64,000 nucleotides of DNA from Lachnospiraceae bacterium (GTDB lineage Bacteria; Bacillota; Clostridia; Lachnospirales; Lachnospiraceae). Shown piece by piece: positions 2,277-54,201 of this stretch. The translations under genes and the position numbers were made by a program. Location of the stretch: positions 56,990-120,989 of the forward strand of contig JAMPFQ010000010.1 of NCBI GenBank assembly GCA_023664345.1, given 5' to 3'. The notes beneath the pieces were generated by a model. The model searched no databases and was not told where the DNA came from. It saw nothing but the letters and a program-made list of their open reading frames with translations. The first letter of the stretch is position 1. Every line of letters starts with the position of its first letter.

Positions 2277-2297
2277 ATGAGGAGGCATGGTTATCAA

Positions 2298-3002: not shown

Positions 3003-4426
3003 GAAAGACCCTCTACCTGAAGTTCATACTGGCTTATGTCATTTTCGGGATATTTAGTTTTATCATAATGACTACCTTTGTACCCAGCATGACCATGGAG
3101 CATCTGGTCCGCGAAAAGGCAGAGAACCTTTACGCCGAGGCCACGCGGATCGCCAATACCTACGCCAACGGACTTTATACCAGTGAAACTGACCTTGAGA
3201 CAGTAAAGACGCAGCTGGATTCCCTTGCCATCTATCTGGAATCCGTGATCCGCATCATCAACCCCTCAGGGCGGCTGGTCATGGACACAGAAACCCCCAT
3301 CAATGTAGAGGAAGTGGTCATGATCGAAGAATTTGACCCTACCGTGACCAGCGGCTCCTATTATATGGTGGATCATTTCTTTGACAGCTTTGAAGATGAT
3401 ATGCTCAATGTCATTGCTCCCATCACCACGGATTACAAAGTAAAAGGATATGTCACCATCCACTGTGACATGGCGGATATCCAGGAATCCTGCAACAGTC
3501 TGCTGAACATCTCCTATATCACCCTGGTGATCCTGCTTTTGCTCTCCCTGATCATTCTGATCTTCTTCACGGAGATCGTATATATACCGCTGCGGAAGAT
3601 CACTTACGCTACGGAGCAGTACGCCGAGGGAAACATGCATTATGAATTTCAGGTTGACAGCGATGATGAGATGGGATATCTTGCAGCCTGCCTGAACTAT
3701 ATGGCCAGCCAGATCGCCGGGGCGGAGGACGACCAGAAAAAGTTCGTGGCAAACGTATCCCATGATTTCCGATCCCCTCTTACTTCCATCAGAGGTTATC
3801 TGGAAGCCATGATAGACGGCACCATTCCCCCGGAAATGCACGAAAAATACCTGAACATCGTGTTAAATGAGACCGACCGCCTGACCAAGCTGACCAACAG
3901 CCTTCTGATGCTGAACAATCTGAACACAAAGGGAATGCTGTTGGATCGGACGGACTTTGATATCAACAAGGTGATCCGAAACACTGCTGCCTCCTTTGAG
4001 GGCACCTGCCGCCAGAAGACCATCGCTATCGAACTGATCCTGACAGGACAGGAAATGCTTGTCAACGCGGATGTGGGAAGGATACAGCAGGTCCTGTATA
4101 ACCTAATCGACAATGCCATCAAGTTCAGCCACCACGATTCTGTCATTAAGATAGAGACCTCCCTGAAAAAGAACAAGCTGTTCGTTTCCGTAAAGGACAC
4201 CGGCATCGGCATTCCAAAGGACGACCTGAAACTGATCTGGGACCGCTTCTATAAATCCGACCTCTCCCGGGGCAGGGACAAGAAAGGGACCGGCCTGGGT
4301 CTCTCCATTGTAAAAGAGATCATCAACTGCCACGGGGAACATATCAACGTGATCAGCACGGAGGGGGCAGGAAGCGAATTTATCTTCTCTCTGGCGCTTT
4401 CTGTGCAGAATGAAGAGGAGGACTGA
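2999..4426 (+). CDS. Membrane sensor histidine kinase
   Basis: Sensor kinase partner of the preceding regulator. It has an N-terminal membrane segment (about residues 7-29), an extracellular sensor region of about 140 residues, a second membrane segment (about 170-192), a HAMP linker, a HisKA domain with phospho-acceptor H255 in VSHDFRSPLTS, and a HATPase domain with N box NLIDNAIKFS, G1 box DTGIGIP and G2 box GTGLGLSI. Length (475 residues) and layout match VicK/PhoR-like kinases. The extracellular domain has no motif I recognise, so the ligand is unknown. The start overlaps the regulator's stop codon. Confidence 0.92.
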   Translation: MRKTLYLKFILAYVIFGIFSFIIMTTFVPSMTMEHLVREKAENLYAEATRIANTYANGLYTSETDLETVKTQLDSLAIYLESVIRIINPSGRLVMDTETPINVEEVVMIEEFDPTVTSGSYYMVDHFFDSFEDDMLNVIAPITTDYKVKGYVTIHCDMADIQESCNSLLNISYITLVILLLLSLIILIFFTEIVYIPLRKITYATEQYAEGNMHYEFQVDSDDEMGYLAACLNYMASQIAGAEDDQKKFVANVSHDFRSPLTSIRGYLEAMIDGTIPPEMHEKYLNIVLNETDRLTKLTNSLLMLNNLNTKGMLLDRTDFDINKVIRNTAASFEGTCRQKTIAIELILTGQEMLVNADVGRIQQVLYNLIDNAIKFSHHDSVIKIETSLKKNKLFVSVKDTGIGIPKDDLKLIWDRFYKSDLSRGRDKKGTGLGLSIVKEIINCHGEHINVISTEGAGSEFIFSLALSVQNEEED

Positions 4427-26091: not shown

Positions 26092-27450
26092 CTAAGAAAT
26101 GTTTATTTTCTTTGTGATAATATCCACCTTATTTCTCAACTCCTCATTGACCTCCAGTTCCGCAGTGATCTTTCTTATGCCGTGTATGACTGTGGTATGA
26201 TCCTTTTTGCCAAGGATCTTACCAATGTTTGCCAGTGAATTATGGGTATATTTACCGCAAAGGTACATGACTACCTGTCTTGGCTGTACAAATTCGGAAT
26301 TTCTCCTCTTTGAGGTAATGTCTTCTGGCTTGACGCCAAAATGTTCCGCTACCACATTGATGATAAGGGTAGGTGTGATCTCTGTAGGTTTGTTTGGATG
26401 GATGACATTCTTTAATGCTTCCTCCGCTGACGCCAGGGAAAGTTCCACTTTGTTCAGTTTCGCAAAAGCGATCAGTTGGTTAAAAGCGCCTTCCAGTTCG
26501 CGGATATTGGAATTGATGTTGGTGGCGATATATTTGATAGCTTCCTCATCGATCTTGTGATCATATATCTCCGCATTCTTGCGCAGGATGGCCATACGTG
26601 TCTCATAATCTGGCGGCTGGATATCGGCGATCAGTCCCCATTCAAACCTTGACCGGAAGCGTTCCTCCAGGGTTTCCATATCTTTAGGAGGCTTATCCGA
26701 GGAGATGATGATCTGTTTTCTGGCGGAATGAAGCACGTTAAAAGTATGGAAGAACTCTTCCTGGGTACTTTCCTTTCCTATGATAAATTGGATATCGTCT
26801 ATCATCAGCACATCAACGGTACGATACTTTTCCCGGAGTTTTGTCATGGAAGCAGCATTACCGCTTCGGATGGATTCTATCACCTCATTAAGGAATACTT
26901 CACTGGTGACATAGAGAACCTTTTTATCCGGATTCTGTTCCAGGATAAAGTGACCGATGGAATGCATCAGGTGGGTCTTGCCCAATCCGGATTCTCCATA
27001 TATGTAAAGAGGGTTATAAACTTCTCCGGGGGTTTCTGCTACCGCCAGGGCAGCGGAGTGGGCAAATTTATTGTTGCTGCCCACCACGAAAGTGTCAAAC
27101 TTATATTTAGGGTTCAGGTTCGCGTTCTCATAATTAATGTTATATCCGGATCCGGACATGGAAAGGCTGTTCTGGTCGTCAAGCCTGATATCTTTTTCCA
27201 GAATGAACTTCACATCATAATTATGGTCGAAAAGTTCTGTAATGGTAACCTGAAAGAATATCCTGTATTTTGTAGAGATATAATTAAGGGCATGTGCCTG
27301 GTCAGAAGGTATGATGATGCTTACCACATCATCTTCCACATCGTAATATTCCAGAGGATCTACCCATGTCCTGTAAGAAACATCGGATATATTATATTCT
27401 TTTCTGATGGTTTCCTTGATAGTAGTCCAGTTCTCTTTTATTTCATCCAT
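26092..27450 (-). CDS. dnaA: Chromosomal replication initiator DnaA
   Basis: AAA+ initiator that binds DnaA boxes and melts oriC. Domain I covers about 1-80. Domain II is short. Domain III has Walker A GESGLGKTHL (about residue 152) and Walker B VLMIDDIQF. Domain IV carries the DnaA signature around GKILGKKDHTTVIHG. The ATG at 27450 is preferred, with AAGGGA 12 bases upstream; an in-frame TTG at 27462 lies directly against that site. It has 452 residues, the usual size. The 3' end has an 18-base tandem duplication across the stop. It is transcribed away from oriC. Confidence 0.97.
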   Translation of the reverse strand: MDEIKENWTTIKETIRKEYNISDVSYRTWVDPLEYYDVEDDVVSIIIPSDQAHALNYISTKYRIFFQVTITELFDHNYDVKFILEKDIRLDDQNSLSMSGSGYNINYENANLNPKYKFDTFVVGSNNKFAHSAALAVAETPGEVYNPLYIYGESGLGKTHLMHSIGHFILEQNPDKKVLYVTSEVFLNEVIESIRSGNAASMTKLREKYRTVDVLMIDDIQFIIGKESTQEEFFHTFNVLHSARKQIIISSDKPPKDMETLEERFRSRFEWGLIADIQPPDYETRMAILRKNAEIYDHKIDEEAIKYIATNINSNIRELEGAFNQLIAFAKLNKVELSLASAEEALKNVIHPNKPTEITPTLIINVVAEHFGVKPEDITSKRRNSEFVQPRQVVMYLCGKYTHNSLANIGKILGKKDHTTVIHGIRKITAELEVNEELRNKVDIITKKINIS

Positions 27451-41153: not shown

Positions 41154-42443
41154 ATGATTGATATTAAATTTCTGAGGGAAAATCCTGATATTGTGAAAGA
41201 GAATATCAAAAAGAAATTTCAGGATGTGAAACTTCCCCTGGTGGATGAAGTGATTGCGCTGGATGCTGAGAGCAGAAAGGCAAAACAGGAGGGTGACGAT
41301 CTCCGTGCTGCCCGCAACAGGATTTCAAAGGAAATCGGTGCGCTCATGGGTCAGGGAAAAAAGGAAGAGGCGGAAACAAAAAAAGCAGAAGTCACTGCAG
41401 GCGCTAAAAGGCTTGCGGAACTGGAAGTACTGGAGGCTCAACTACAGGAAAAGATCATGAAGATCATGATGGTGATCCCTAATATCATCGACCCCTCCGT
41501 ACCTGTGGGTAAGGATGACAGCGAGAATGTAGAGATCCAGAAATATGGGGAGCCTGTGATCCCTGATTTTGAAGTGCCTTATCATGCTGATATCCTGGAC
41601 AGCATCAGCGGTCTGGATAAAGAGGCGGCGGGGCGTACCAGCGGAAATGGATTTTATTATCTGACGGGTGATGCCGCAAGAATCCATTCCGCCATGATCA
41701 GCTATGCCAGGGATTTTATGATCGATAAGGGATTTACTTATTGTATTCCTCCTTTTATGATTCGCAGCAGCGTGGTGAACGGCGTCATGAGCTTTGCGGA
41801 AATGGAAGCCATGATGTATAAGATAGAAGGGGAAGACCTCTACCTGATCGGTACTTCCGAGCATTCCATGATAGGCAAGTTTAAGGGACAGATCGTCAAT
41901 GAAGCCAGCCTGCCCATTACCATGACTTCCTATTCTCCCTGCTTCAGAAAAGAAGTAGGTTCCCATGGCATCGAGGAAAGAGGCGTATATCGCGTACACC
42001 AGTTCGAAAAACAGGAGATGGTGGTACTCTGTAAGCCCGAGGAGTCCATGGATTGGTATGATAAAATGTGGTCTTATACCGTTGATTTTTTCCGCAGCCT
42101 TGATATTCCTGTCCGCACCCTGGAATGCTGCAGCGGCGACTTGGCGGATCTGAAAGTGAAGTCCTGTGATGTGGAGGCATGGAGTCCCAGACAGCAGAAA
42201 TATTTTGAAGTAGGTTCCTGTTCCACTTTAGGAGACGCTCAGGCAAGGCGTTTGGGGATCCGTACAAAAGGGGAAAATGGTACTTACTTTGTGCATACCT
42301 TAAATAATACAGTACTGGCATCACCGAGAGGACTGATCGCGTTTTTGGAAAATAATGTGAACGCGGATGGAAGTATTGATATCCCGGAAGCGCTGCGCCC
42401 TTATATGGGCGGTAAAGAAAAGATCATACCTGTTGCAAAGTAA
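41154..42443 (+). CDS. serS: Seryl-tRNA synthetase
   Basis: Class II synthetase charging tRNA-Ser, 429 residues. The N-terminal coiled-coil arm covers about 30-105. Motif 2 is around SYSPCFRKEVGSHGIEERGVYRVHQF, seen here as TSYSPCFRKEVG then YRVHQFEKQE. Motif 3 includes LNNTVLASPRGLIAFLENN, shortened here. CGGAGG lies at 41142-41147 before the ATG. No T-box leader is seen; the gene appears to be read from upstream. Confidence 0.96.
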   Translation: MIDIKFLRENPDIVKENIKKKFQDVKLPLVDEVIALDAESRKAKQEGDDLRAARNRISKEIGALMGQGKKEEAETKKAEVTAGAKRLAELEVLEAQLQEKIMKIMMVIPNIIDPSVPVGKDDSENVEIQKYGEPVIPDFEVPYHADILDSISGLDKEAAGRTSGNGFYYLTGDAARIHSAMISYARDFMIDKGFTYCIPPFMIRSSVVNGVMSFAEMEAMMYKIEGEDLYLIGTSEHSMIGKFKGQIVNEASLPITMTSYSPCFRKEVGSHGIEERGVYRVHQFEKQEMVVLCKPEESMDWYDKMWSYTVDFFRSLDIPVRTLECCSGDLADLKVKSCDVEAWSPRQQKYFEVGSCSTLGDAQARRLGIRTKGENGTYFVHTLNNTVLASPRGLIAFLENNVNADGSIDIPEALRPYMGGKEKIIPVAK

Positions 42444-42463
42444 AAAGGATAAAGAGTGTAAAT

Positions 42464-43177
42464 ATGAAAGTCAGGAAACTTGCAAATATATTTTGTGGGA
42501 TATTTGCAGCTGTAGGCGCTTTCTTAGTGACGGCTGCCGTTATGATATGCATCTCAGACCGGAAGTTCATGGCCGGAGCGGAAGAGATTAGCGGTGTCAT
42601 CAGCGCCATTGAAACATATAGGGATACGGGTGATGAAACGCATCACAGGGTTTATGTGGATTATACATATAACGGCCAGCAGTATGGTAAAGTACGGGTT
42701 AATTTTTACACCAGCAGCATGTATGAGGGAAAAGAGATCACTTTATACTGTGATTCCCGGCATCCCGAAAGAGTGAGAGTACAGGGAGCGGACACTTTCG
42801 CGTTCAGCATGTTCTTGGTGATGGGGATCATCTTCTTATGCGGAGGTATCATTCCCCTTATCATATCCATCCGCAGCAGAACAAAGAAAAAGAAAGTGCG
42901 GGAAACCGGAAGAATGCTTTACGCCACTGTGGACGAGATCGACCGTAATACAAACTATCGGTTTAACGGAAAGAATCCCTATGTGATCATATGCAGCTAC
43001 AGGGATGATCATAAAGATATCACATACCGCTTCAAGAGCGAAAATCTCTGGTTTGATCCCGAACCTGCAGTTACGGTGGGATCTATAATCAAAGTTTATG
43101 TGGAAGAAAATAATCATAAAAATTATTATGTTGACACGGAGAGTATGATTCAGGGCAAAGTTGTAGATTATACTTAA
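42464..43177 (+). CDS. DUF3592 membrane protein
   Basis: A 237-residue protein with two membrane segments (about 8-32 and 108-132), each followed by a beta-rich soluble domain. The first (YVDYTYNGQQYGKVRVNFY, then ITLYCDSRHPERVRV) has the DUF3592 pattern; the second appears to be a diverged repeat of it (VIICSYRDDHKDITYRFKS). Function is unknown. It lies 20 bases after serS, probably in the same transcript. Confidence 0.75.
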   Translation: MKVRKLANIFCGIFAAVGAFLVTAAVMICISDRKFMAGAEEISGVISAIETYRDTGDETHHRVYVDYTYNGQQYGKVRVNFYTSSMYEGKEITLYCDSRHPERVRVQGADTFAFSMFLVMGIIFLCGGIIPLIISIRSRTKKKKVRETGRMLYATVDEIDRNTNYRFNGKNPYVIICSYRDDHKDITYRFKSENLWFDPEPAVTVGSIIKVYVEENNHKNYYVDTESMIQGKVVDYT

Positions 43178-43219: not shown

Positions 43220-44113
43220 TTGCATAGATACATGCGTGCTATCGGTTTCAGCAGTTTTGAGAGCAAAAAGAAGCTTCAGGAACTTTTGACGGATGTAGTG
43301 ATGAATTCTGATAAAAGAAGCATCACCATGAACCAGGAAAATACACTGTTGGGAGAATTTTGCAAAGATTTTGCCGCAGGTCTTGGGATTGCTGTATGTG
43401 GTGAATTTGATGATGAAGACAGGTTCATCTATGAGTATTACTATCCGTATATTAAAGGGACCGGCATCACTTCCCATGAAGATGTGTCCGTGGAGCGCCA
43501 TGCGGACAAGGATTCTTATGCCGGCGTATGCGATGATATCAAGGTGGGTATTTCCCTGATCTTTTATCTGAAAAATAAGATTCCGTATGTGAAAGCCCAG
43601 GCTACGGGGAAACTTCCAATCCGTGGGACTTCCCTGACTCTTTCCGCCTTGTCCACCAATGCTTCGATCCTGCTGCCTATTCAGAAAGACGCGGAGCAGC
43701 TGCAACGGGTAAAGCAGGCCTCCATCAACAGGAGCACACTGATGGCAGCAGCCAGAAAAGGAGACGAGGATGCCATAGAGACCCTGACTCTGGAGGATAT
43801 GGATATGTACACCGCCATTTCCAAAAGAATCCCCAAGGAAGATATCCTCAGTCTGGTGGACACTTATTTTATGCCCTACGGCGTGGAATGCGACCAGTAT
43901 TCCGTCCTCGGCGAGATCATGGCAGTGCGCCTTATCACGAACCAGATGAGTGGGGAAAAAATTTATATTTTAACAATTTGCAGTAATGAATTGACATTTG
44001 ACGTTTGTGTGAATATAATAGACTTATTCGGTGAACCTCAAGTGGGCAGAAGATTCAAAGGTGTCATCTGGCTACAGGGCCAGATTAATTTCCCTGAGGA
44101 AGCTGAATTGTAA
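43220..44113 (+). CDS. DUF3881 family protein
   Basis: A conserved unknown of about 297 residues that I associate with Lachnospiraceae, usually near serS. It starts MHRYMRAIGFSSFES if the TTG at 43220 is used, with AAGGTGA 5 bases upstream. A GTG at 43211 or an ATG at 43229 are alternatives. No membrane segment or catalytic motif is evident. A perfect promoter lies inside its 3' end, and its TAA stop (44111-44113) directly abuts tRNA-Arg. Confidence 0.8.
   Translation: MHRYMRAIGFSSFESKKKLQELLTDVVMNSDKRSITMNQENTLLGEFCKDFAAGLGIAVCGEFDDEDRFIYEYYYPYIKGTGITSHEDVSVERHADKDSYAGVCDDIKVGISLIFYLKNKIPYVKAQATGKLPIRGTSLTLSALSTNASILLPIQKDAEQLQRVKQASINRSTLMAAARKGDEDAIETLTLEDMDMYTAISKRIPKEDILSLVDTYFMPYGVECDQYSVLGEIMAVRLITNQMSGEKIYILTICSNELTFDVCVNIIDLFGEPQVGRRFKGVIWLQGQINFPEEAEL
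43991..44019 (+). promoter_or_regulatory. Consensus promoter inside DUF3881, for tRNA-Arg
   Basis: TTGACA (43991-43996), a 17-base spacer and TATAAT (44014-44019): both hexamers match the consensus exactly. Transcription would start near 44026, giving an 88-base leader before the tRNA. Confidence 0.8.
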
Positions 44114-44186
44114 GTTGGTGTAGCACAGTGGATAGTGCAGCCGCCTCCTAAGCGGAAGATCGGGTGTTCGAGTCACCTCACCAACG
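44114..44186 (+). tRNA. tRNA-Arg (anticodon CCT)
   Basis: The acceptor arms GTTGGTG (44114-44120) and CACCAAC (44179-44185) pair fully, with discriminator G. The anticodon loop CTCCTAA gives CCT, reading AGG. The T loop is TTCGAGT. CCA is not encoded. The 3' half probably forms the attachment site of the integrated element, whose integrase lies just downstream. Confidence 0.93.
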
Positions 44187-44189
44187 CTG

Positions 44190-44224
44190 AAATGCCGTAA
44201 ATCTAAAGGTTTGCGGCATTTTTC
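44190..44224 (+). terminator. Terminator after tRNA-Arg
   Basis: AATGCCGtAAA (44191-44201) pairs with TTTGCGGCATT (44210-44220), followed by TTTT. It probably ends the tRNA transcript. Confidence 0.85.
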
Positions 44225-44300
44225 GTTGCGGCTTTCCCTCCAGGGATTAGAATGTGGGAATTGGATTCAAACATATTCCTATCCTCCGCCCCCTGGGTAT

Positions 44301-44367
44301 CCCCCACAGGGATTAGAACCCTTTTGCGGGAAAAACAAGCCCTGCTAACCATTCTGCTAATTTCCAC
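44301..44367 (-). other. Possible degenerate tRNA-like remnant
   Basis: Read on the minus strand, it has a D-arm-like TTAGCAGAATGGTTAGCAG and a T-arm-like AGGGTTCTAATCCCT. However, the acceptor arms do not pair and the anticodon stem is poor. TTCTAATCCCTG recurs at about 44238-44249. It may be a relic of an earlier integration or a chance resemblance. Confidence 0.25.
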
Positions 44368-44422
44368 TTTACATGGTGCATACCGTATACTTTCATGCCA
44401 TTATGTTTATTCCGGTGCCGTT

Positions 44423-45853
44423 TTATGACCCCATCATTTTCTTTGCGAACTGTGCCATGATCTGCTCACCGAACTTCTCCACGAACTGTTTCGTAAAATC
44501 CTCCATGAGCCCCGGCTCGGACTGGAGCTGCTCCATCATGGCGGATGGGTCAGGCACGGCCTGCTGGGGGCTGCCCTGGAGTTTCTGTTCCACAGGGCGC
44601 ATGTCCGGGTTGGCGTAAAACGCCGTCTCAAACTTCTGTGCGTTGATTTTCCTGTCCTCGTCCAGGATATGGGCGTAGATGTCCGTGATCATGTCTATCT
44701 GCGCATGCCCCGTATCCCCCTGGGTGGCTTTCAGGTCCCCCTTGTTCAGTTTCAGCTTGTAAGTCGTGCTGGAATGGCGTAGGGAATGGAATACCACGTC
44801 AGGGAGCCCGGCGGATTTCTTCAGCCGCTCAAACTGGTTGCCGATGATGCGGTCCTCACAAGGCCTCCCTGTCTCCTGCGCCAATACAAGGTTGTAATCA
44901 GTATAGTCCGGCCCCATGAGTTCCTTTAGTTTATTCTGCTTTTCCCTCCAATCGCACAGGATGCAGGCCAGTGTCTTTGGTATCCATACCTTGCGGACGC
45001 TGCTCTCGGTCTTCGGCTTCTTTAACACTAGCCGGGTGGAGGACTTCCCGCCCATTACCCTGGGGAACACATACAGGATGTCTTTTTCACCAAGGGCGTC
45101 AATGGCCTTTTGGTCAACGCGAGCCAGCTCCTTCTCGATCCATACATAGGCATTGTCCGCCGCAATCTCCGCCTCGGAAATATGGAGGCAGTCCCATGTG
45201 AGCCCGGTGATCTCCCCCAGGCGCATGGAACAGGCGAAAGCAAGGTTGATCGCAACATAGAGCTTGCCGTCCTCGCAGCTGTCAAGGGCTTTGCGGATGG
45301 TGTCCGCCGTCCAGATAGCCCGCACATGCTTTTCCCTCTTTGGCAGGTCTGCATCCTCGAAAGGGTTTTTGCCGACCATGTCCCAGCGGACTGCCTGGTG
45401 GAAAGCGCAGCGCATGAGTTTCATGACCTTCTCGATGGTGCATGGCGTGACGAACTCCGTCTTCGCATGGCGGTAAGGCGTGCTCACGGCCGGCGTTTTC
45501 TGGAGCTGCTGTATAAAATGGTCAACAGTCCTCCTGTTCACATCCTGTACTAAAAGGCTCCCAATCAGGGGGTTGATGTAATTGCTGATAAGCGCGTTGT
45601 TGGTGGCGTAGACTGACAGGCCCCAGCGCTTTGTGCCGTACAGTTCCACGAAATCCTTCAGGAACGACTCAACGGTGGCGGTGCTGGGCGGGATGAACGT
45701 GCCGCTGTTCATTTCATTTTCAACCGCAGCCTTCCTTGTGCGCGCCTCCGCCTTTGTGTCAAAAGTCTCCCACTTCTGCCTTTTCTGGCCGTCCTGGTCC
45801 TCGTAGGTATATACGACAGAATATTTCTTTCCTCTTTTTTGAATTGATGCCAT
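44423..45853 (-). CDS. int: Tyrosine recombinase integrase
   Basis: Site-specific recombinase of 476 residues that should integrate and excise the element at tRNA-Arg. An N-terminal AP2-like arm-binding domain (about 1-55) is followed by a SAM-like core-binding domain (about 60-175) and the catalytic domain: Arg in CSMRLGEITGL, HSLRHSS, GDTGHAQ and the nucleophile Tyr in TDIYAHIL. A Gln/Met-rich tail of about 75 residues follows the Tyr. It lies next to the tRNA and just downstream of the excisionase gene on the same strand, the usual arrangement. Confidence 0.95.
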   Translation of the reverse strand: MASIQKRGKKYSVVYTYEDQDGQKRQKWETFDTKAEARTRKAAVENEMNSGTFIPPSTATVESFLKDFVELYGTKRWGLSVYATNNALISNYINPLIGSLLVQDVNRRTVDHFIQQLQKTPAVSTPYRHAKTEFVTPCTIEKVMKLMRCAFHQAVRWDMVGKNPFEDADLPKREKHVRAIWTADTIRKALDSCEDGKLYVAINLAFACSMRLGEITGLTWDCLHISEAEIAADNAYVWIEKELARVDQKAIDALGEKDILYVFPRVMGGKSSTRLVLKKPKTESSVRKVWIPKTLACILCDWREKQNKLKELMGPDYTDYNLVLAQETGRPCEDRIIGNQFERLKKSAGLPDVVFHSLRHSSTTYKLKLNKGDLKATQGDTGHAQIDMITDIYAHILDEDRKINAQKFETAFYANPDMRPVEQKLQGSPQQAVPDPSAMMEQLQSEPGLMEDFTKQFVEKFGEQIMAQFAKKMMGS

Positions 45854-45873: not shown

Positions 45874-46083
45874 TTAAGAATCACTGCCCCCGTCAAGCCA
45901 TTCGTCAAAAGATTTTTTTGAGATCCTCAGCCTGCTGCCGATATGGACAGCCTTGAAAGCGCCTTCCGCGCACAGGTTGTACACGGAGCGCCTGCTGACG
46001 CCGAGTATCTCCGCCGCCTCTGCGACGGAATAGCTCCTTTTCCCGGCAGCGGCTTGGGGGCTGTTATTGGTCTGTTCAGCCAC
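45874..46083 (-). CDS. xis: Excisionase-like helix-turn-helix protein
   Basis: A 69-residue MerR-like/HTH_17 protein: SYSVAEAAEILGVSRRSVYN followed by a wing with HIGSRLRISKKSFDEWL. Such proteins usually direct excision by the neighbouring integrase. It starts with GTG, supported by AAAGGAGGG 6 bases upstream. It ends 20 bases before the integrase gene. Confidence 0.88.
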   Translation of the reverse strand: MAEQTNNSPQAAAGKRSYSVAEAAEILGVSRRSVYNLCAEGAFKAVHIGSRLRISKKSFDEWLDGGSDS

Positions 46084-46609
46084 GGTACCCTCCTTTCTGC
46101 GTGGCTGGGGAAGCCTGCGGTCCCTTTACACATATATAACTTACGATTCCCAGCCAGCCACGTCAACAAAAAAATAAAAACAAAGTGTTCAAGTCCTAAA
46201 AAATTGTTTTCTGCACATGGCATCCCGGTCCATTTCCTGGTCCAGTGTCCCTGCCCCGTATTTCCAGGCCCTGCTGTGCAGGGTTATGCAGGGGGCATGG
46301 CTGTCCCCTGCGCCTGTATAACTCCCGGTGCCATGCTATGGAATTGTCAAGGTGCAAGTAAGTCATATATGGCATCTTTTGTGACATCCATACAATAATA
46401 AAACAGGGCAGGAAAAAAATTTTTCTGCAAAATCGGAAAAAAGTTGAAAATTTTTTGGAACAGGTTTTCCAAAATAGGATATAAGGCAGAATTTTAATCA
46501 ATACAGGGCAGGATAAACCTGCAAAGATATAAAATTAAAACGCCTTATAGAATATGGTTTTAAGAAAAGTATAGTCCACAAAATAATCCTGTATATAGTG
46601 TGTATAATA
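46084..46609. other. Gap upstream of xis with no gene seen
   Basis: About 525 bases without a supported gene. The part at 46390-46600 is AT-rich. It presumably holds the divergent control region for xis-int (minus) and the first RNA unit (plus); no clear operator was found. Confidence 0.4.
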
Positions 46610-46779
46610 TTGACAGACACTATATATTGTGCTACACTTCCCACATAAATGATTTTTGTGCGGATGCAGCCCTACGGAGGCTGTACGCGGGATACCCGCA
46701 TTGCACACGCTGTTAAGTTTGTATTTTTGTGCCAGCAGTACCATTATGCCCTCTGGGCGGTGGTTTGCTGGCTCTTTTT
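46610..46779 (+). ncRNA. Structured RNA unit, copy 1 (promoter, RNA, terminator)
   Basis: TTGACA (46610-46615), 17 bases, then TACACT (46633-46638) predict a start near 46645. The RNA has a possible closing stem TGTGC/GCACA around two hairpins, CAGCC/GGCTG and GCGGG/CCCGC. A linker identical to copy 2 follows (CACGCTGTTAAGTTTGTATT and the bases after it). It ends in a terminator with GCCAGCA/TGCTGGC and an inner ACCAT/GTGGT before CTTTTT. Copy 2 at 48489 keeps the same stems with altered bases. It lies upstream of a small Cys-rich gene and could be an attenuator leader or a free small RNA. Confidence 0.7.
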
Positions 46780-46908
46780 GTGTAACGGGAAATCTGCAGC
46801 ACCATAAAATTATATCCTGCTTACGGGGAACCATGGGCGACAAAGACAGGGAAAGGAATCATCCCTGCCTTTTATGTGCAAAAAAATAAGGGAAAGAGGT
46901 GATGGGAA

Positions 46909-47112
46909 ATGGAAAAATTAAGGTGGCTGGATAAAAGCTGCAACAGATGCGGCAGCAGGCTGAACAGCTGGGATGCCAGGCTGTCAAAGACGCTTGCGTA
47001 CAAGTACCCCTGCTGTGAATCCTGTATTGCAGGCGAATACGGCATGGCTGCGGAGGCGCTGCGGGAACGCATGGAAGGTTACTTTGGGATACGCCCCTGC
47101 CTGGGGATATGA
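46909..47112 (+). CDS. Small Cys-rich (zinc-ribbon-like) protein
   Basis: A 67-residue protein with CNRC near residue 11 and CCESC near 35, which could bind one zinc. AGAGGTG lies upstream of the ATG. It is the first gene after RNA copy 1 and is followed after 16 bases by another small gene, so it probably heads an operon. I do not recognise a named family. Cys pairs, a good ribosome binding site and operon context support it being real. Confidence 0.6.
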   Translation: MEKLRWLDKSCNRCGSRLNSWDARLSKTLAYKYPCCESCIAGEYGMAAEALRERMEGYFGIRPCLGI

Positions 47113-47128
47113 AAAGGAGGCTGAAAAG

Positions 47129-47347
47129 GTGAAAGAGAAAGAGCATAAAGGCTACAACCTGCTGACGGAGAAGCTTCTGGAGGCAGGCTATACAGTGGAA
47201 AACTACCCTGAGTATGTCAAGGTTGACGTCCCTTTTGGGTGCAGGAAGAGCCTTGACAATTATTATGGCGGGTTTACTTTCCAACGGCGGTGGGTATATG
47301 GGCGTACATTCAAGACACCTTGCGGGCTGCAGTGTAAGGGCCTGTAA
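47129..47347 (+). CDS. Small unknown protein (72 residues)
   Basis: It starts with GTG, 8 bases after AGGAGG (47115-47120), inside a longer open frame whose upstream part is not coding. The product begins MKEKEHKGYNLLTEKLLEAG and is rich in Tyr, Arg and Gly, with two Cys near the C-terminus. No family is recognised. It lies between two Cys-rich genes on the same strand and ends 12 bases before the next. Confidence 0.55.
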   Translation: MKEKEHKGYNLLTEKLLEAGYTVENYPEYVKVDVPFGCRKSLDNYYGGFTFQRRWVYGRTFKTPCGLQCKGL

Positions 47348-47359
47348 TGCGAGAGCAGC

Positions 47360-48355
47360 ATGGCGTATATGGGCATTGAGTGGACTTTTGAAAATGACAT
47401 GGCCACCATCCAATGCCCTTATCAGGAATGCGGCTGTAAATTGAAACATGGGTACCTGCAGGAACATGGGGTGCTCAAGTACCGGTGCAATGTGCATATG
47501 GCGGATGAGGAATACAGGTATGAGGGGAGCGTGGAAAACATCCAGAAACTGCATGATGATGAGATCCGGAGGAAAAAAGAAAGCTTCATCCTGCAGCGGG
47601 AAGGGTATGCCTGCCAGGAACACATGGTATTTAACAGGGAGACGCAGCAGTGGGAAATGCATTATGACCCATATCACTGCGGCTTGAAAGGATGCAGCGG
47701 GTACTGCCCGGTCTTAGGGCGTGACCTGGACAGGAAGAAGGGGAATGTATTTTATGATGTGAAGACAAGGTATCTCAGGAGCGACCTGGAAGGCACATTA
47801 TTTGAGGGGCAGGTGGATACCAGTGTCATCAAGGGGAGAAAACTCTTCGGTCATCCAGTGAGCATGGATATCTGCAGGGTATGCGCGGAACTGTGCAAGG
47901 ATAAAATACATGAAAAAGAAAAGTCACGCTATTTCAGGGAATTATTTTTCTCTGAATACCATGGGAAAGAATTTTCTTTTGAAACAGGGAATATCCGGGC
48001 GGAGTGCCGGGAGACAAGGGACCTGCTGCAGGACCTGGAGGATATCAGGAACGGGATACAGATAGCGCATGCCTCAGATGTGGAGAGGAAGCAGTCGGAG
48101 GACAAAAGAGAGAGGAAACAGAAGCTGCATGAGGCTGCAGTAAAAAAACTGGAAAACAAGCTGCTGGAGACAGGCTACTATAACATGGAGGAATTCAGCG
48201 CGGACAGGCGCCATGCGGACAAATGGCTGGGTAAAGAGCGGATCGGTCAACTGGAGAGCCTGCGGCAGCAGAGAGAGGAGGAAAAAAAGAGCCAGCCGGT
48301 GCAGCTCAGTCTGTTTGACATGACGGGGGAAAAGATTTATGAGGCAGGCAAGTAA
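47360..48355 (+). CDS. Unknown Cys-rich protein with C-terminal clamp-binding-like motif
   Basis: A 331-residue soluble protein with several Cys clusters: CPYQECGC (about residue 19), CNVH, CGLKGCSGYC (about 109) and CRVCAELC (about 173). This suggests two or more zinc sites. A charged helical region (about 215-310) leads to QPVQLSLFDM near the end, which fits the beta-clamp binding consensus QLxLF. It may therefore work at the replication fork together with the host clamp (DnaN, encoded at 24.7 kb). The ribosome binding site is weak, so coupling to the preceding small gene is likely. No named family is recognised. Confidence 0.7.
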   Translation: MAYMGIEWTFENDMATIQCPYQECGCKLKHGYLQEHGVLKYRCNVHMADEEYRYEGSVENIQKLHDDEIRRKKESFILQREGYACQEHMVFNRETQQWEMHYDPYHCGLKGCSGYCPVLGRDLDRKKGNVFYDVKTRYLRSDLEGTLFEGQVDTSVIKGRKLFGHPVSMDICRVCAELCKDKIHEKEKSRYFRELFFSEYHGKEFSFETGNIRAECRETRDLLQDLEDIRNGIQIAHASDVERKQSEDKRERKQKLHEAAVKKLENKLLETGYYNMEEFSADRRHADKWLGKERIGQLESLRQQREEEKKSQPVQLSLFDMTGEKIYEAGK

Positions 48356-48488
48356 AGCTGCCAAATCAGCCTGTATGTGACATAAACTGGCAAAAAAAGT
48401 TATCAAGAAAGATAACCGAATTTGCTTATACATGTCATAGGCAAATAAAACAGATCATTAAAAATATACCATATATTGTATTATAATC

Positions 48489-48669
48489 TTGACGAGAACA
48501 ATATCTTGTGTTACACTGTCCTTGTAATTGATTTTTGTGCGTACCTGTATGGGAATACAGCCGGATAAGGCTGTATGCGGCATTTGCTGCATTGCACACG
48601 CTGTTAAGTTTGTATTTTTGTGCCAGCAGCACCACTATGCCTTTTGGGCGGTGGTTTGCTGGCTTTTTT
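48489..48669 (+). ncRNA. Structured RNA unit, copy 2 (promoter, RNA, terminator)
   Basis: TTGACG (48489-48494), 17 bases and TACACT (48512-48517) predict a start near 48524. The RNA repeats the copy 1 design: TGTGC/GCACA closing stem, ATACAGCC/GGCTGTAT, GCGGCA/TGCTGC, the identical linker CACGCTGTTAAGTTTGTATT onward, and the terminator GCCAGCA/TGCTGGC with inner ACCAC/GTGGT before TTTTTT. An extra CTGTAT upstream could pair with ATACAG as an alternative. It precedes the YqaJ operon. Nothing else is seen between 48356 and 48899. Confidence 0.72.
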
Positions 48670-48899
48670 GTCATGTGGGATAAATCCCTTTAAAGCGAGA
48701 ATGGAACCGGCACATGGGAGACATGGGCAGCAGGAATATAAGAAGGTTCATTCCCGCTATTTTTATGCGTAAATCTGGCAGGGGATATTTTCCCGTCAGG
48801 CAGATGCCGGAACCGGTACTATGGTGCCAGCCGTACAATGCCCAAACGCCGATACGGCTTTGAGGATAAAACAATTTAAGGAAAGGAAGGTAAAAAAGA

Positions 48900-49058
48900 A
48901 TGGGAACAAAGAAAAGAAATGCCGGCAAGGGCTGGCAGGAACAGGGCAGCAGACGCCCGGGAAAGGAGGCAGTCTATCAAACGCTGGGCGGTTACCGGAA
49001 TACCAGCGCCGTCCCCAAGATGATGTGCCTCCACCGGAGAAGCGGGAAGGGGGCGTGA
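48900..49058 (+). CDS. Possible small basic protein before the YqaJ gene
   Basis: A 52-codon frame starting ATG 48900, 9 bases after AAGGAAGG. The product is basic and Gly-rich: MGTKKRNAGKGWQEQGSRRP, ending RRSGKGA. Its stop lies 2 bases before the YqaJ start, and its last codons contain the YqaJ ribosome binding site, so it may be a translational coupling leader. No family is recognised. Confidence 0.45.
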   Translation: MGTKKRNAGKGWQEQGSRRPGKEAVYQTLGGYRNTSAVPKMMCLHRRSGKGA

Positions 49059-49060
49059 CG

Positions 49061-50125
49061 ATGCCCAGTACAGGACAGGAAAAGGAAAGGCGTGAGCCGC
49101 TGGTACTGGTGGATACGGAAAACCTCCCGCAGGAGGAATGGCTGGAATGGCGCCGCCGTGGGATAGGCGGGAGCGATGTGGCAGCAATCACAGGCATCTC
49201 CCCTTTCCGTACCGCGAGGGATATCTATTATGATAAACTGGGTATTGCGGCGGTGGAAGAAAATGAAGGGAACTGGGTGGCCATGGAGATGGGCCATTTA
49301 CTGGAGGACCTTGTGGCGGAGATATTCCGGCGCAAGACAGGGTTTGAGATTTTCCAGGCCAAAAAGATGTTCTGCCATCCGCTGCACCCTTTCATGCTAG
49401 CAGACGTGGATTACCTGGCTGCCATGCCGGACGGGTCAAAAGCCATTCTGGAGATCAAGACCACCAACTATAACGCGAAAGACCACTGGTGGAAGGACGG
49501 CAGGGAAACCGTGCTGGATTATTATGAGATACAGGGCAGGCATTATATGGCGGTGCTGGATATTGACCGTGTGTTTTTCTGCTGCCTTTATGGCAACACG
49601 GAGGATGAAGCCATCATCCGGGAGATCCGCAGGGACAGGGCATATGAGGAAGAAATGATATTCCTGGAACAGGAATTCTGGGAAAACCATGTGCTGAAAA
49701 AAGACCCGCCGCCGTACCTTGAGGATGGGGACCTGATCACCGCCAGCGCAAGGAAATACTGCGGGCCGGCGGACAAAAATGCCCCTCCCATAGTGCTGGA
49801 GGGCGAAATGAAGTCCCTGCTGATGCGTTATATGCAGCTTCAGGAGGAAAAAAAGAACTCAGAGAAATATTCCAAGAAGCTGGAGGATGACATGCAGAGG
49901 CTGAAAGCAATCCTGGCTGCCGGGATGGGTACGAGCTGCACCGCAGTCTGTGACAAGGGGGAAAGCCATTACACGGTGACGTATAACCCTGTCAGGAAAC
50001 CCATTGTTGACAAGGACAGTCTGGCACGGCTTAAGCTCCTGTTCCCGGAGATTTACGAACAGTTTGTGACCACGCTGGAATTCCGAAAATTCCATGTAAA
50101 GGTCAGCCGGCAGGATGCAGCCTGA
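49061..50125 (+). CDS. YqaJ-like viral recombinase (lambda exonuclease family)
   Basis: Predicted 5'-3' exonuclease for homologous recombination, 354 residues. The N-terminal WRRRGIGGSDVAAITGISPF is characteristic. Active-site residues are the Glu in MGHLLEDLVAE, the Asp in LADVDYL and ExK in ILEIKTTNY. The C-terminal third is a helical extension. The ATG at 49061 follows GGAAGGGGG; an ORF open from 48821 has no support upstream. The next genes encode RecD2 and a possible annealing partner, so this is likely a Red-like recombination module. Confidence 0.9.
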   Translation: MPSTGQEKERREPLVLVDTENLPQEEWLEWRRRGIGGSDVAAITGISPFRTARDIYYDKLGIAAVEENEGNWVAMEMGHLLEDLVAEIFRRKTGFEIFQAKKMFCHPLHPFMLADVDYLAAMPDGSKAILEIKTTNYNAKDHWWKDGRETVLDYYEIQGRHYMAVLDIDRVFFCCLYGNTEDEAIIREIRRDRAYEEEMIFLEQEFWENHVLKKDPPPYLEDGDLITASARKYCGPADKNAPPIVLEGEMKSLLMRYMQLQEEKKNSEKYSKKLEDDMQRLKAILAAGMGTSCTAVCDKGESHYTVTYNPVRKPIVDKDSLARLKLLFPEIYEQFVTTLEFRKFHVKVSRQDAA

Positions 50126-50174: not shown

Positions 50175-52454
50175 ATGGGCTATATAGGTACTTATGACGG
50201 GAAGATATTCCACAACCCGTCCAACAAATACTGCATAATCGTGGTTAAGACGGCGGACAGTTCCATCCCTGAACAGGCACGGGATAAAAGGCGTTACAGC
50301 GACCACCTGATCCGTTTTACGGCCATCGGCTATGGACTCCCCCTCACGGATGCAGTAGGACTGGAACTGGAGGGGGAATGGGTAAACGGCAGATACGGCC
50401 TGCAGCTGCAGGTGGAACAGTGGCATGAAATCGTGCCAAAAACAGAAGAAGGGGTGCTTGGCTACCTTGGTTCCGGGCTAATAAAAGGGATCGGGGAGAA
50501 AACTGCCGCAGAGATCGTGGCAAAGTTTGGGACAGGCACGCTGGATATCCTTGAGAAACACCCGGAACGGCTCCTTGAAGTGCGCGGGATAACGGAGAAC
50601 AGGCTGGAAGACATTAAGACTTCCTTTGCCGAGAGCAGGGTACTGCGCGACATCATGGCGCTGCTGGCGCCTTTTAAGCTTACCCCGAAAACGGCGCTGA
50701 AGGTGTACCAGCATTTCGGGCCGTCCTGCATGGAGGTTTTAAGGAAAAGCCCTTTTGAACTGTGCCAGATACCGGGGTTCGGTTTCCGGCGCGTGGATGC
50801 CATTGTCAGGAAGACGGATAACCGGCCCCATGACCTCATGCGGGTAAAAGGGGCGCTCCACTGCGCCTTGGATGAAGCAAAAGGCAGGGGGCATCTGTTC
50901 CTGGAAAGAGAGGAACTGTACAAAGCTGCCATGCGGCTGCTGAATGAAAAGATCCCTGTTCCGGAAATGAGGGTTCACAGGGAAGAAGCGGAGAAGGCAC
51001 TGGAGGATATGGTGATGGGAGGATCTGTTGTCTCCATGAAAGACAGCATCTACCATCCTGCGGCATTTTCCCAGGAAGATGAGACAGCCTGCCGGATCGC
51101 AAAACTCCTGGTGGCTGAAAAACCGCCGGCGAGAGATATTTCCGCTGCCATGGGGGCTGTCAAGGAGGAGTTCGGCCTGCGCACGTCACAAAAACAGGAA
51201 TCCGCCGTAAGGACGGCATTCCTGCATAACCTTTCCATAATCACCGGTTCGCCGGGGACAGGGAAGACAACCGTGCTGAAGATCATCCTCGAAATTTACC
51301 GCAGGATCTACCCCGGCAACAAAATAGTGCTCATGGCCCCGACAGGGCGGGCAAGCCGCAGGATGGCGGAAAGCACGGGTTTTGAGGATGCCCGCACGCT
51401 CCACAGCGGCCTGTGCCTTGCCAGTGAGGAGGATGAAGGGAGCCGTACAAAGGGCAGGGGATCTGACGCACTGGATGCAGACCTTGTTATTGTAGATGAG
51501 TTCTCCATGGTGGATATGTGGCTTGCCAGCAAATTTTTTACCGCGTTGAAGAGCGGGGCAAAAGCTGTCCTGGTGGGGGACCCTGACCAGCTCCCCAGCG
51601 TGGGGGCGGGGAATGTGTTCAAAGAACTGATCCTGTGCGGGCTTGTTCCGGTCACAGTCCTGGATGAGATATTCCGCCAAGCAAAGGACAGCCTTATCGC
51701 TCACAATGCCAGGTTCATCCATGACGGGAACACAAAGCTTTATTATGGGAATGATTTCATGTTCCTCCCCTGTGAAAACCAGGCAGAGGCAGCGGCGGCC
51801 ATCATAGAAAGGTACTGCCAGGAAATTGAAAACAATGGGATAGAGCATGTCCAGATCCTTTCGCCGTTCAGGACGGAGGGGGAGGCGTCTTCAGAGCAGC
51901 TCAACGCGGCTATCAGGGAGATCGTAAACCCGTTCCGCTCCACGGAGGATGAAGTCCGCATAGGGGCGAAAACTTTCCGCGTGGGGGACCGGATCATGCA
52001 GACAAAGAACACCGACAAGGTATCCAACGGCGACCTGGGATTTATCCGGTATATTGAGGATACGCCGGAAGGGAAAAGGATAGGGCTGGAATTTGGGAAA
52101 GACCGCAGCCTGGAATATGGCATGGAAGACCTGGCAAACCTGGACCTGGCGTATGCGGCTACGATCCATAAGGCAATGGGGTCAGAGTATGATGTCGTGC
52201 TGATGCCGGTGCTGAAGGCGCATTATGTCATGCTTTACCGAAACCTTCTGTATACAGGGATCACTCGGGCAAAAAAGCGTGTGGTGTTGGTGGGCGAGAA
52301 AAGTGTGCTTTTCATGGCGATCCACCGGAATGAGACCAGCAAGAGGAATACCCTCTTAGGGGAAAGGACGTGCCTGTATTATAAAGCGTTCGCAAAAAGC
52401 GCCGGGCTTCCCGTCCCGGCTTTCTCGGAGGGGAAATTAAAGGAAGCAGGTTAA
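50175..52454 (+). CDS. RecD2-like SF1 DNA helicase
   Basis: 5'-3' helicase of 759 residues, not part of RecBCD. The N-terminal OB-like region (about 1-85) is followed by helix-hairpin-helix repeats (about 95-215, e.g. LIKGIGEKTAAEIV and IPGFGFRRVD), Walker A GSPGTGKTTVLK (about residue 358), Walker B VIVDEFSMVD, GDPDQLPSVGAG and motif VI-like YTGITRAKKRVVLVG. The family's usual length is 720-800. It follows the YqaJ gene by 49 bases. It probably serves replication or recombination of the element. Confidence 0.93.
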   Translation: MGYIGTYDGKIFHNPSNKYCIIVVKTADSSIPEQARDKRRYSDHLIRFTAIGYGLPLTDAVGLELEGEWVNGRYGLQLQVEQWHEIVPKTEEGVLGYLGSGLIKGIGEKTAAEIVAKFGTGTLDILEKHPERLLEVRGITENRLEDIKTSFAESRVLRDIMALLAPFKLTPKTALKVYQHFGPSCMEVLRKSPFELCQIPGFGFRRVDAIVRKTDNRPHDLMRVKGALHCALDEAKGRGHLFLEREELYKAAMRLLNEKIPVPEMRVHREEAEKALEDMVMGGSVVSMKDSIYHPAAFSQEDETACRIAKLLVAEKPPARDISAAMGAVKEEFGLRTSQKQESAVRTAFLHNLSIITGSPGTGKTTVLKIILEIYRRIYPGNKIVLMAPTGRASRRMAESTGFEDARTLHSGLCLASEEDEGSRTKGRGSDALDADLVIVDEFSMVDMWLASKFFTALKSGAKAVLVGDPDQLPSVGAGNVFKELILCGLVPVTVLDEIFRQAKDSLIAHNARFIHDGNTKLYYGNDFMFLPCENQAEAAAAIIERYCQEIENNGIEHVQILSPFRTEGEASSEQLNAAIREIVNPFRSTEDEVRIGAKTFRVGDRIMQTKNTDKVSNGDLGFIRYIEDTPEGKRIGLEFGKDRSLEYGMEDLANLDLAYAATIHKAMGSEYDVVLMPVLKAHYVMLYRNLLYTGITRAKKRVVLVGEKSVLFMAIHRNETSKRNTLLGERTCLYYKAFAKSAGLPVPAFSEGKLKEAG

Positions 52455-52519: not shown

Positions 52520-52620
52520 ATTCTATTATCGAGATTCTGTAATGGAATTAAAGACTTAATTCTATCATCAAAATTTTATGATGGTATCAAAAAAGATGTA
52601 ATTATCAAAATTCTACCATG
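52520..52620 (+). promoter_or_regulatory. Iteron-like repeats upstream of the linker-repeat gene
   Basis: Two related 26-base units, ATTCTATTATCGAGATTCTG at 52520 and ATTCTATCATCAAAATTTTA at 52559 (39 bases apart), both end in ATGG. A partial third, AATTATCAAAATTCTACCAT, begins at 52600. The second unit is an imperfect palindrome. They end 1 base before the ribosome binding site AAAGGAG, so they could be an operator or replication iterons. Confidence 0.5.
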
Positions 52621-52635
52621 AAAGGAGATTTCAAT

Positions 52636-54201
52636 ATGAATAAGAATGAACATTCAGCAACTATGTATGAGAGGGTTCCTGCGGTGGCAGCGTTGAACAA
52701 GGTGCCGGGCTTTGACCCGCTCACCCTGCTGCGCCGTACTGTTTCCCCGGAAAACGGGGAGGAAGTATTGCAGCTGGATTTCCCGTACAAAAAATTATGG
52801 TTCCGCCTGGCGAACCCGAAAGGGCGCATTAAACTGAACGCCCTCCGCATCACGGAACAGCTTGCCATTTTTGAGGCACAGGTCTACCTGGACCGCAGTG
52901 ACGAGAACCCTATAGGGAGTTTTACTTCCAGTTGTACGAGGGAAGAGGCTCCCGGCGGGCAGTACATCAAAGCGGCACAGCAGGCGGCCATGGATGAGGC
53001 ATTGTCGGACGCAGGATTTGGCGTACAGTTTGCCGATGTGGAAATGGGGGCAGGCGGCAGCAGATACGGCAGCAGGCTTCCCCTGTCAGACGGGCAGGCA
53101 GGCCATCTCCCCGCAGGAACTGGTGCAGAGGCTCCCTCGCAGCAATCAGCGGCACAGCCCGCACAGACTAGGCAGCCAGCTGCAGGCAGTAAGATATCTG
53201 ACCCTAACGGCTTTCAGCAACTGCCCACGCAGGCACAGCCGGACAGCACATCTCCTGCGGGAGCAAAAACGGCAGCTACAGGGAACACAGCAGCAGGAAA
53301 GCCTATTGCAAATAATAATATGGTGCAGAAACAATCTGTGGGAATGGCAGCAGGGCAGAGAAATCTCCCCGTACAGCCCTTTGCAACACAGAATGCAGTA
53401 CAGCAGCTTGGCAATGCGCAAAGGCAGGCGGCACAGCCTGCTCAGGCAGTGAATCATTTCAATCCTGCCGGGGAGCAAGTGCTGCCAGTACAGTCTCCTG
53501 CCGCACAGACAGGACAGGTACAGCCTTCCGCCGCACAGACAGGTAAAGTACAGCCTTCCACCGTACCGGCAGGGCGGGTACAGCTTTCCACAGCGCAGAC
53601 AGAGCAGGCACGGTCTTCCGCTGTGCAAACAGGGAAGATACAGCCTTCTACAACACAGGTGGGGCAGGTACAGTCTCCTGCCCCACAGGAACAGGCGGAT
53701 AAGGGAGAAGCATTACCGGTACAGACAGCGGGGAACCAGCTGCCGGTGCAGCCGCAGGTACAAAAAAAGGAGGCAGCGCAGCCTGCAGGGGCAGTTTCAC
53801 TGCCTGTACAGACTGCAGGATCTATATCCGGGATTCCCACAAAGGAAGAAGCAGTAACGCTCCCGTTTACCGGCAAAGAGGAGAAAGCAGGGACAACAGC
53901 TTTAAACCAGACACATCCGGGTACTGCTTTACCGGGTGGTCAGGCACAGGAAGCCCCAGCGCCCCGCTATACCCCTGATATGTCCGTGGAGGAGATCCTC
54001 AGTCTGATGACCCCGGAAGAAGCAGGGAAAGTAGTGGTAGATGTAGGGGTATGCAAAGGGCAGACAATTGCCGAAGTGGCAGAACGCAGACCGCCCAGCT
54101 TAAAGTTTTACTGCTATGGCGGCTACAAAGGGGATAACAATATCCTCCGTGCGGCAGCCCGGATCATGCTGGATTCCCTGGAGGCACGGAAAGCAGGGTA
54201 A
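52636..54201 (+). CDS. Unknown protein with Gln/Pro/Ala repeat linker, possible recombination partner
   Basis: A 521-residue protein. The N-terminal globular part (about 1-145) ends with YIKAAQQAAMDEALSDAGFG, which recalls helices in single-strand annealing or Rad52-like proteins. A disordered Gln/Ala/Pro/Ser linker (about 150-430) follows, containing about seven 10-residue repeats of the type VQPSAAQTGK (53487-53693). The C-terminal 80 residues, with VCKGQTIAEVAERRPPSLKF, resemble the exoX-like C-terminal domain. AAAGGAG precedes ATG 52636. Beside YqaJ nuclease and helicase genes, a DNA-annealing role is plausible but unproven. Confidence 0.65.
   Translation: MNKNEHSATMYERVPAVAALNKVPGFDPLTLLRRTVSPENGEEVLQLDFPYKKLWFRLANPKGRIKLNALRITEQLAIFEAQVYLDRSDENPIGSFTSSCTREEAPGGQYIKAAQQAAMDEALSDAGFGVQFADVEMGAGGSRYGSRLPLSDGQAGHLPAGTGAEAPSQQSAAQPAQTRQPAAGSKISDPNGFQQLPTQAQPDSTSPAGAKTAATGNTAAGKPIANNNMVQKQSVGMAAGQRNLPVQPFATQNAVQQLGNAQRQAAQPAQAVNHFNPAGEQVLPVQSPAAQTGQVQPSAAQTGKVQPSTVPAGRVQLSTAQTEQARSSAVQTGKIQPSTTQVGQVQSPAPQEQADKGEALPVQTAGNQLPVQPQVQKKEAAQPAGAVSLPVQTAGSISGIPTKEEAVTLPFTGKEEKAGTTALNQTHPGTALPGGQAQEAPAPRYTPDMSVEEILSLMTPEEAGKVVVDVGVCKGQTIAEVAERRPPSLKFYCYGGYKGDNNILRAAARIMLDSLEARKAG

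Follow-up and report, generated by a model that had tools for sequence, protein, structure and literature searches.

A 64,000-nucleotide (nt) stretch of DNA from a Lachnospiraceae bacterium (contig JAMPFQ010000010.1, positions 56,990 to 120,989; hereafter the window) carries two paralogous units, each made up of a promoter, a branched RNA and a terminator (T1). The window is part of a 3.9-Mb genome and carries one end of an integrative element. The units are copies of a covarying leader RNA that recurs in Clostridia, and by analogy with known systems we lean slightly towards reading it as an RNA that sits at the 5' end of operons of integrative and conjugative elements (ICEs) and would act in cis by processive antitermination. 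The RNA occupies the start of the operon in cis and precedes predicted terminators that have to be passed, as is expected of an RNA antiterminator. All of the terminators discussed here are predictions from sequence.

The initial annotation had described the two units at 46610-46779 and 48489-48669, and both are present there with the promoter layout it gave (Table 1). They have 81 nt in common at 94% identity. Unit 1 lacks hairpin P2, which is present in most of the 101 copies parsed below. The predicted folding of unit 1 (46645-46786; z of -3.3) and of unit 2 (48524-48672; z of -4.0) was better than that of 200 out of 200 dinucleotide shuffles. Each unit stands ahead of element genes, as had been claimed, unit 1 before a gene for a 67-amino-acid (aa) protein and unit 2 before the YqaJ operon. 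The further claim, that the stems of the two copies compensate for one another's changes, stood in part. A genuine two-sided swap, from G-C to C-G, is seen at the last pair of P4; the difference between ACCAT/GTGGT and ACCAC/GTGGT is one-sided only, and that between CAGCC/GGCTG and ATACAGCC/GGCTGTAT is mainly a lengthening of the stem. The evidence for compensation appears thin from the two window copies alone and strong once the homologues are included.

Further homologues were sought and found. An exact scan of a collection of species genomes for TTGCACACGNNGTNAAGNTTGTA returned at least 117 stretches bearing the core; the named organisms among the 80 listed titles were Clostridia, and metagenome-assembled genomes were also among the titles. 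Of 150 genomes from the family searched at the DNA level, the window's own included, 11 gave matches; four of these (G000, G046, G119 and G149) have recognisable copies, and the remaining matches (for example, locus L012) are short and without the core. The core was also borne by two contigs of a viral collection, and BLAST identified relatives of unit 2 in two phage records and in the record of one Subdoligranulum plasmid. Searches with the models R1 and R2 brought in distant copies (genomes G028, G496 and G328; G589, with seven, G646 and G815), several of which keep the layout despite altered core letters. Over many genomes, the model searches gave at least 4 of 392 and at least 4 of 391 (own genome included), which are lower bounds because the filters were strict and few candidates were scored. 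The loci and the window together gave 132 matches, 108 of them distinct over the central 180 nt. The parsed set was comprised of 101 copies, after removal of duplicates and of two copies in which the 5' strand of P1 could not be recognised. The first gene behind these copies encodes a YqaJ protein in 32, is ssb in 25, encodes the 67-aa protein in 20 and is another gene in 24. Classing by ribosome-site motif gave 30 ssb-type copies, 27 of them with 1 kb downstream. Several copies often lie on a single contig.

The consensus runs from GUAAUUGAUUUUUGUGCG through the hairpins P2, P3 and P4 to AUUGCACACGNNGUUAAGUUUGUA and then T1. A nearly invariant stem of P0 (UUGAU/GUUAA) and P1 (UGUGCG/UGCACA) encloses up to three variable hairpins, their number being lower in some copies, and an invariant linker (GUUAAGUUUGUA) and T1 follow behind. 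A MAFFT alignment was made from sequence only, with 25 copies less than 90% alike (26 were selected and L036 was excluded for its odd terminator). Cells were paired in 92.6% compared with 87.3% after shuffling, two-sided changes were present in 17 of 33 pairs compared with a shuffled mean of 8.5, and any of the five measures was reached by none of 500 shuffles. When the structure was slid along the alignment as a control, pairing dropped to 30-45%. A model-guided alignment, in which 111 matches gave 92 distinct rows, showed two-sided changes in 25 of the 33 pairs; this alignment leans towards the model, and its loci came from the core pattern or earlier searches. P1 was invariant in the 25-copy set and had one two-sided change in the 92 rows, probably that of L030 (UAUG/CAUA). 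In P0, one pair had three changes from U-A to A-U and another had two from U-A to C-G. When column pairs in 66 non-redundant rows were ranked by a G-test with average-product correction, the top four all fell within the structure; lower ranks were a mixture of structural and other pairs, the statistic having no tree-based null. The proposal that selection acts on RNA structure is thus supported by both shuffle-controlled and model-guided covariation. A hairpin within the linker (ACACGCUGUUAAGUUUGU), present in some folds, was rejected, as variants such as GCAGTTAAGATT break it by eye.

That the elements are ICEs is clearest in one genome, G119. VirB4-like, coupling-protein and VirB11-like genes are present beyond its ssb unit and a Tn916-type integrase lies beside its YqaJ unit, which together identify an ICE. 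The context search used 21 handles for 19 distinct genomes, G046/G888 and G119/G891 showing the same places. Copies face each other over ~45-106 kb in seven genomes (G046/G888, G119/G891, G149, G886, G887, G890 and G892). The facing copies in G886, G888, G890 and G119 head an ssb arm and a YqaJ arm, and these arms are syntenic, with parts shared with the window and with contig C45 of the window's genome. From this synteny, we infer that the other elements are also ICEs. An actin-like protein and a Cro/CI-type regulator are encoded between the G119 arms. A weak ECF sigma-like protein (L203:8952-9491; E of 0.004, below cut-off) was seen at a syntenic place in the ssb arm of each of four elements and also in C45.

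Promoter hexamers were found ahead of 96 of the 101 parsed copies, with the promoter just upstream of GUAAUUGAUUUUUGUGCG, and T1 was at its expected place in 94 (scanner listing, counted by hand). The palindrome CTATATATAG, a likely repressor site judging by its sequence, occurred 50 times over the 100 upstream stretches taken, at least one of which was empty. Palindromes CTATATATAG and CAATATATTG and near forms surround the -35 element in copies such as L044 and L101, and this arrangement points to one repressor common to these promoters. Palindromes near the promoter, and a position at the head of an ssb gene in ICEs, could also suit a device that works at the level of DNA. The single-stranded promoter Frpo of the F plasmid folds and is used on the transferred strand during conjugation. 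We consider a device of this kind most improbable here, since an ordinary promoter precedes the structure in those 96 copies, the branched structure falls in the transcribed part, and terminators follow it.

The distance from the T-run of T1 to the ssb start codon was 41-47 nt in the 26 copies measured, and no promoter-like site was reported between them in these copies. At these loci, the unit is therefore a leader. This speaks against a small RNA that acts in trans, in which T1 would free a stable transcript of ~135-160 nt to act elsewhere and operon expression would be leakage; the fact that the copies head different operons does likewise. Its own promoter, compact fold and conserved linker would fit such an RNA, which we nonetheless regard as quite unlikely. 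A plain insulator, in which T1 and the second terminator-like hairpin behind it (T2) would do no more than stop transcription entering from outside, with the branched RNA serving messenger stability or having no part in termination, appears very unlikely. T1 sits behind the unit's own promoter and would silence it, and the P1 and linker sequences are nearly invariant.

Further terminators lie behind T1. Among the 27 ssb-type copies with 1 kb downstream, a long inverted repeat with a T-run at +350 to +800 (the post-ssb terminator) was found in the sense direction in 20 and in the antisense direction in one, its position being +516 to +584 in the ten distinct copies printed. The next start codon with a ribosome-site motif followed at 33-59 nt in 16 of the 20, and no promoter-like site was found in between in these 16 measured copies. 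Under another rule for finding the start, the distance came to 135, 307 and 312 nt in three of the printed ten, with an earlier ATG visible by eye in two of the three (L049 and L087). The post-ssb terminator was seen to be conserved (for example, in L037, L044, L087 and L093) with a long stem and a TTTTCAGAATGA...CTGAAA-like top, and its lower-stem letters vary in pairs by eye. For the non-ssb copies, repeats like T2 were counted in 48 with at least 280 nt, 23 others being too short; they were present in 33 of 48 in sense, in none in antisense, and in at most one of 48 in any of five shuffles. In a set of 16 copies, some with truncated ends, 12 of 17 predicted T2 pairs showed two-sided changes, a count without a shuffle control. 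Beyond position 48764 of the window and in class B loci, a further conserved stretch (TGCCCAAAYGCCG...CGGCTTTGAGGATA) was observed between T2 and the ribosome site.

As there is little room for a promoter behind T1 in the ssb class or behind the post-ssb terminator, the polymerase must pass successive terminators, and expression seems to need read-through of them. A switch at T1 alone would then be insufficient, and a processive change of the polymerase would explain the arrangement; we infer this processive step from the resemblance to canT, conAn2, put and EAR. Once transcribed, the conserved P0/P1 stem and linker would attach to the very RNA polymerase that produced them, either unaided or together with a protein of the host or the element. 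This polymerase would thereby become able to read through T1, next through T2 or the post-ssb terminator, and through those that come later. Transcription arriving from host or stray promoters would have no such RNA on its polymerase and would end at T1, so that the element would be insulated. One device at several operons of an element would coordinate their expression. More tentatively, and with clearly less than even confidence, the leaders may be a protein-free class of processive antiterminator RNA in the conjugative elements of gut Clostridia, in which the junction RNA and the shaped top of T1 act jointly on RNA polymerase and only transcripts from the element's own promoters run through its terminators.

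Several observations weigh against processive antitermination. The pairing of P1 rests on the one two-sided change and on a wobble variant that visual inspection shows in the copies of G589, and the minimum-energy fold of the full leader has P1 in 57 of the 101 copies. The top of T1 is conserved more than a mere obstacle requires. T2 was looked for behind window unit 1 and none was seen. Six genomes have copies in the same direction on one contig (G000 on C1, G028, G589, G815, G889 and G896). Deep intergenic terminators were weakly enriched in sense (28 compared with 18, over four elements with a few double-counted). When the 700 nt behind T1 were scanned with looser settings, at least one terminator was found in sense and in antisense, respectively, in 23 and 16 of 23 ssb copies, 18 and 20 of 29 YqaJ copies, 13 and 9 of 18 copies of the 67-aa class, and 14 and 9 of 17 others. 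Such loose counts separate the strands poorly, and the stricter inverted-repeat tests separate them well. Further results count against it and fit a conditional attenuator or riboswitch, in which a ligand or an element protein would switch T1 alone and the 5' strand AUUGAUUUUUGU would either take part in P0/P1 or pair with the 5' arm of T1 instead. In predicted folds of transcripts ending at that arm, the arm averaged 46% paired upstream, mostly with the 5' end; it was at least 40% paired upstream in 57 of 92 copies; and of 25 copies, 6, including five ssb-type ones, had a duplex between the 5' end and the arm with a z of -2 or lower.

The attenuator would also fit the leader position with its T1 and the 44 of 101 predicted folds from which P1 is missing, and it appears to keep real support from these folds. 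We judge it unlikely all the same. The mean duplex z was just -1.2 with the 5' end shuffled, or -0.5 with the arm shuffled, and no consistent covarying alternative helix stood out in the covariation test of 66 rows. The junction nucleotides are without conservation like that of a ligand pocket, and a switch at T1 would leave T2 and the post-ssb terminator unrelieved. Base pairing between the core and the T1 arm was also considered and rejected, being no better than that of shuffled cores (-6.8 compared with -6.9 kcal/mol).

No small protein partner common to the leaders was identified among the genes shared by four elements, and the first genes differ by class. The 67-aa protein was rejected as a partner of the ConAn1 kind, as it follows just 20 of 101 copies. 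A 531-aa protein with an S1 RNA-binding domain was observed amid the ICE transfer genes of G119 (L211:8819-10414) and is a candidate RNA-binding partner. Two NusG-domain genes were found in the window's genome, on contigs C4 and C29, whereas C1, which has an incomplete part of the ICE, and C45 had none.

The view that no named RNA family fits was borne out, as no Rfam 15 family reached its gathering threshold for the units. The Rfam 15 scan gave just the tRNA in the window and nothing at 8 further loci. The best weak match of unit 2, rli62 (15.8 bits against a threshold of 83; E of 1), is at chance level and was rejected, and another copy scanned for weak matches gave different ones from unit 2. 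No match to EAR (eps-associated RNA) was listed for unit 2 at E up to 10; the Rfam library used presumably contains the EAR model. Unlike these ICE leaders, EAR belongs to exopolysaccharide operons. The put RNA of phage HK022 folds into two hairpins, and its two sites head two operons. The present leader likewise heads operons, and it is a branched junction RNA, unlike put. R2 had no match on HK022 at E up to 10 with default filters. Among the open-access PMC papers matched by full-text searches, none described such an RNA in these elements in its title or the start of its abstract.

The put RNA is an antiterminator without protein factors (PMC11658703), and EAR is an RNA-based processive antitermination system of Firmicutes (PMC8955417). 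canT of Tn916 is a processive cis-acting antiterminator, most likely an RNA; the fragment in question is 452 bp long, and its authors, who regard the folds predicted for it as difficult to interpret, could not link its activity to any of them (PMC11658703). The present leader resembles canT in being an orientation-specific cis element of an ICE, ahead of terminators, with downstream genes that seem to need read-through; unlike canT, the leader is a compact RNA that covaries and follows immediately on each promoter. R2 scored at best 2.6 bits over pCF10 41400-42900, the integrase-excisionase-helix-turn-helix region of the Tn916-like element, which was taken as canT, the exact 452 bp not being marked. 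The conAn system of pLS20 consists of the ConAn1 protein and the conAn2 RNA (PMC8955417). It shares with the present leader a Firmicute conjugative element, a place at the operon start and internal terminators in the operon; conAn joins its RNA with a protein, and no such partner is known for the leader. R2 gave at best 10.3 bits over pLS20 1900-4000, the presumed place of conAn on the map. No convincing relative was found by R2 in HK022 or in the first 50 kb of pCF10 and of pLS20, and the leader would seem, by the tests made, to be unrelated to canT, conAn2, put or EAR. Three weak R2 matches, all on the minus strand, were taken as chance: pLS20 26529-26616 (16.7 bits, E of 0.03), pCF10 46012-46098, annotated as the tet(M) leader peptide (16.4 bits, E of 0.036), and pCF10 14481-14616 (13.9 bits, E of 0.16).

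The features of the window are listed in Table 1. R2 matched unit 2 with 134.9 bits, unit 2 itself being in the R2 alignment. The integrase and tRNA locus is probably the end of the ICE. A 69-aa protein beside the integrase (45874-46083, minus strand) has an excisionase-like helix-turn-helix sequence, as judged by eye. No match to the 67-aa protein was found in Pfam or NCBIfam. The gene after unit 1 (46973-48355, plus strand) is split by an in-frame TAA at 47345-47347 into two open stretches of one frame, with open reading frames (ORFs) ending at 47347 and starting at 47360; it may thus be broken or may be two genes. Genes for YodL/CHC2, PcfK and PcfJ lie on the plus strand behind the YqaJ and RecD2-like genes. 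Within a 527-aa ORF (52618-54201), 30-bp repeats were observed at 53458-53697 (six 90-nt copies in register, 30 apart). A third copy of the unit in the same genome (C45:145784-145968) lies directly before a gene with an SSB domain. No shared stretch of 15 nt or more, as sought for an attachment-site repeat, was found between window 44051-44450 and C45:136000-155000.

Table 1. Features of the window, with positions counted from its first nucleotide.
Feature	Position	Strand	Details
tRNA gene	44114-44186		Rfam scan
Tyrosine integrase	44423..45853	-	Adjoins tRNA gene 44114-44186
Promoter, unit 1	46610..46638	+	TTGACA, 17 nt, TACACT
RNA unit 1	46645..46779	+	P0/P1 enclosing P3, P4; linker; T1; R2 match 102.2 bits
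Unit 1 P1 stem and inner hairpins	46657..46707	+	UGUGCG 46657-46662 / UGCACA 46702-46707
Unit 1 P3	46665-46671/46679-46685	+	
Unit 1 P4	46687-46691/46695-46699	+	
Unit 1 conserved 3' linker CGCTGTTAAGTTTG	46708..46721	+	Holds P0 3' strand GTTAA 46712-46716
Unit 1 terminator T1	46731..46779	+	Conserved top TATGCCC, U-tract
67-aa zinc-ribbon-like protein	46909..47112	+	First gene after unit 1; cysteine pairs by eye
Promoter, unit 2	48489..48517	+	TTGACG, 17 nt, TACACT
RNA unit 2	48524..48670	+	P0/P1 enclosing weak P2, P3, P4; linker; T1
Unit 2 P1 stem	48536..48598	+	UGUGCG 48536-48541 / UGCACA 48593-48598
Unit 2 P3	48555-48562/48569-48576	+	
Unit 2 P4	48577-48581/48586-48590	+	
Unit 2 terminator T1	48622..48669	+	
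Unit 2 second terminator-like hairpin T2	48694..48764	+	AGCGAGAATG...CATTCCCGCT, then ATTTTT
YqaJ-type recombinase	48821..50125	+	First large gene after unit 2
RecD2-like helicase	50175-52454	+	Next after YqaJ gene

The RNA antiterminators named in PMC11658703 and PMC8955417 are few, namely put, EAR, conAn2 and canT. The approximately 100 natural variants described here, with a clear fold and an invariant core, make the RNA features used for terminator bypass testable by comparison. If processive antitermination by the leader is true, it would show how large ICEs of gut Clostridia could stay silent under host promoters yet express their genes as a set.
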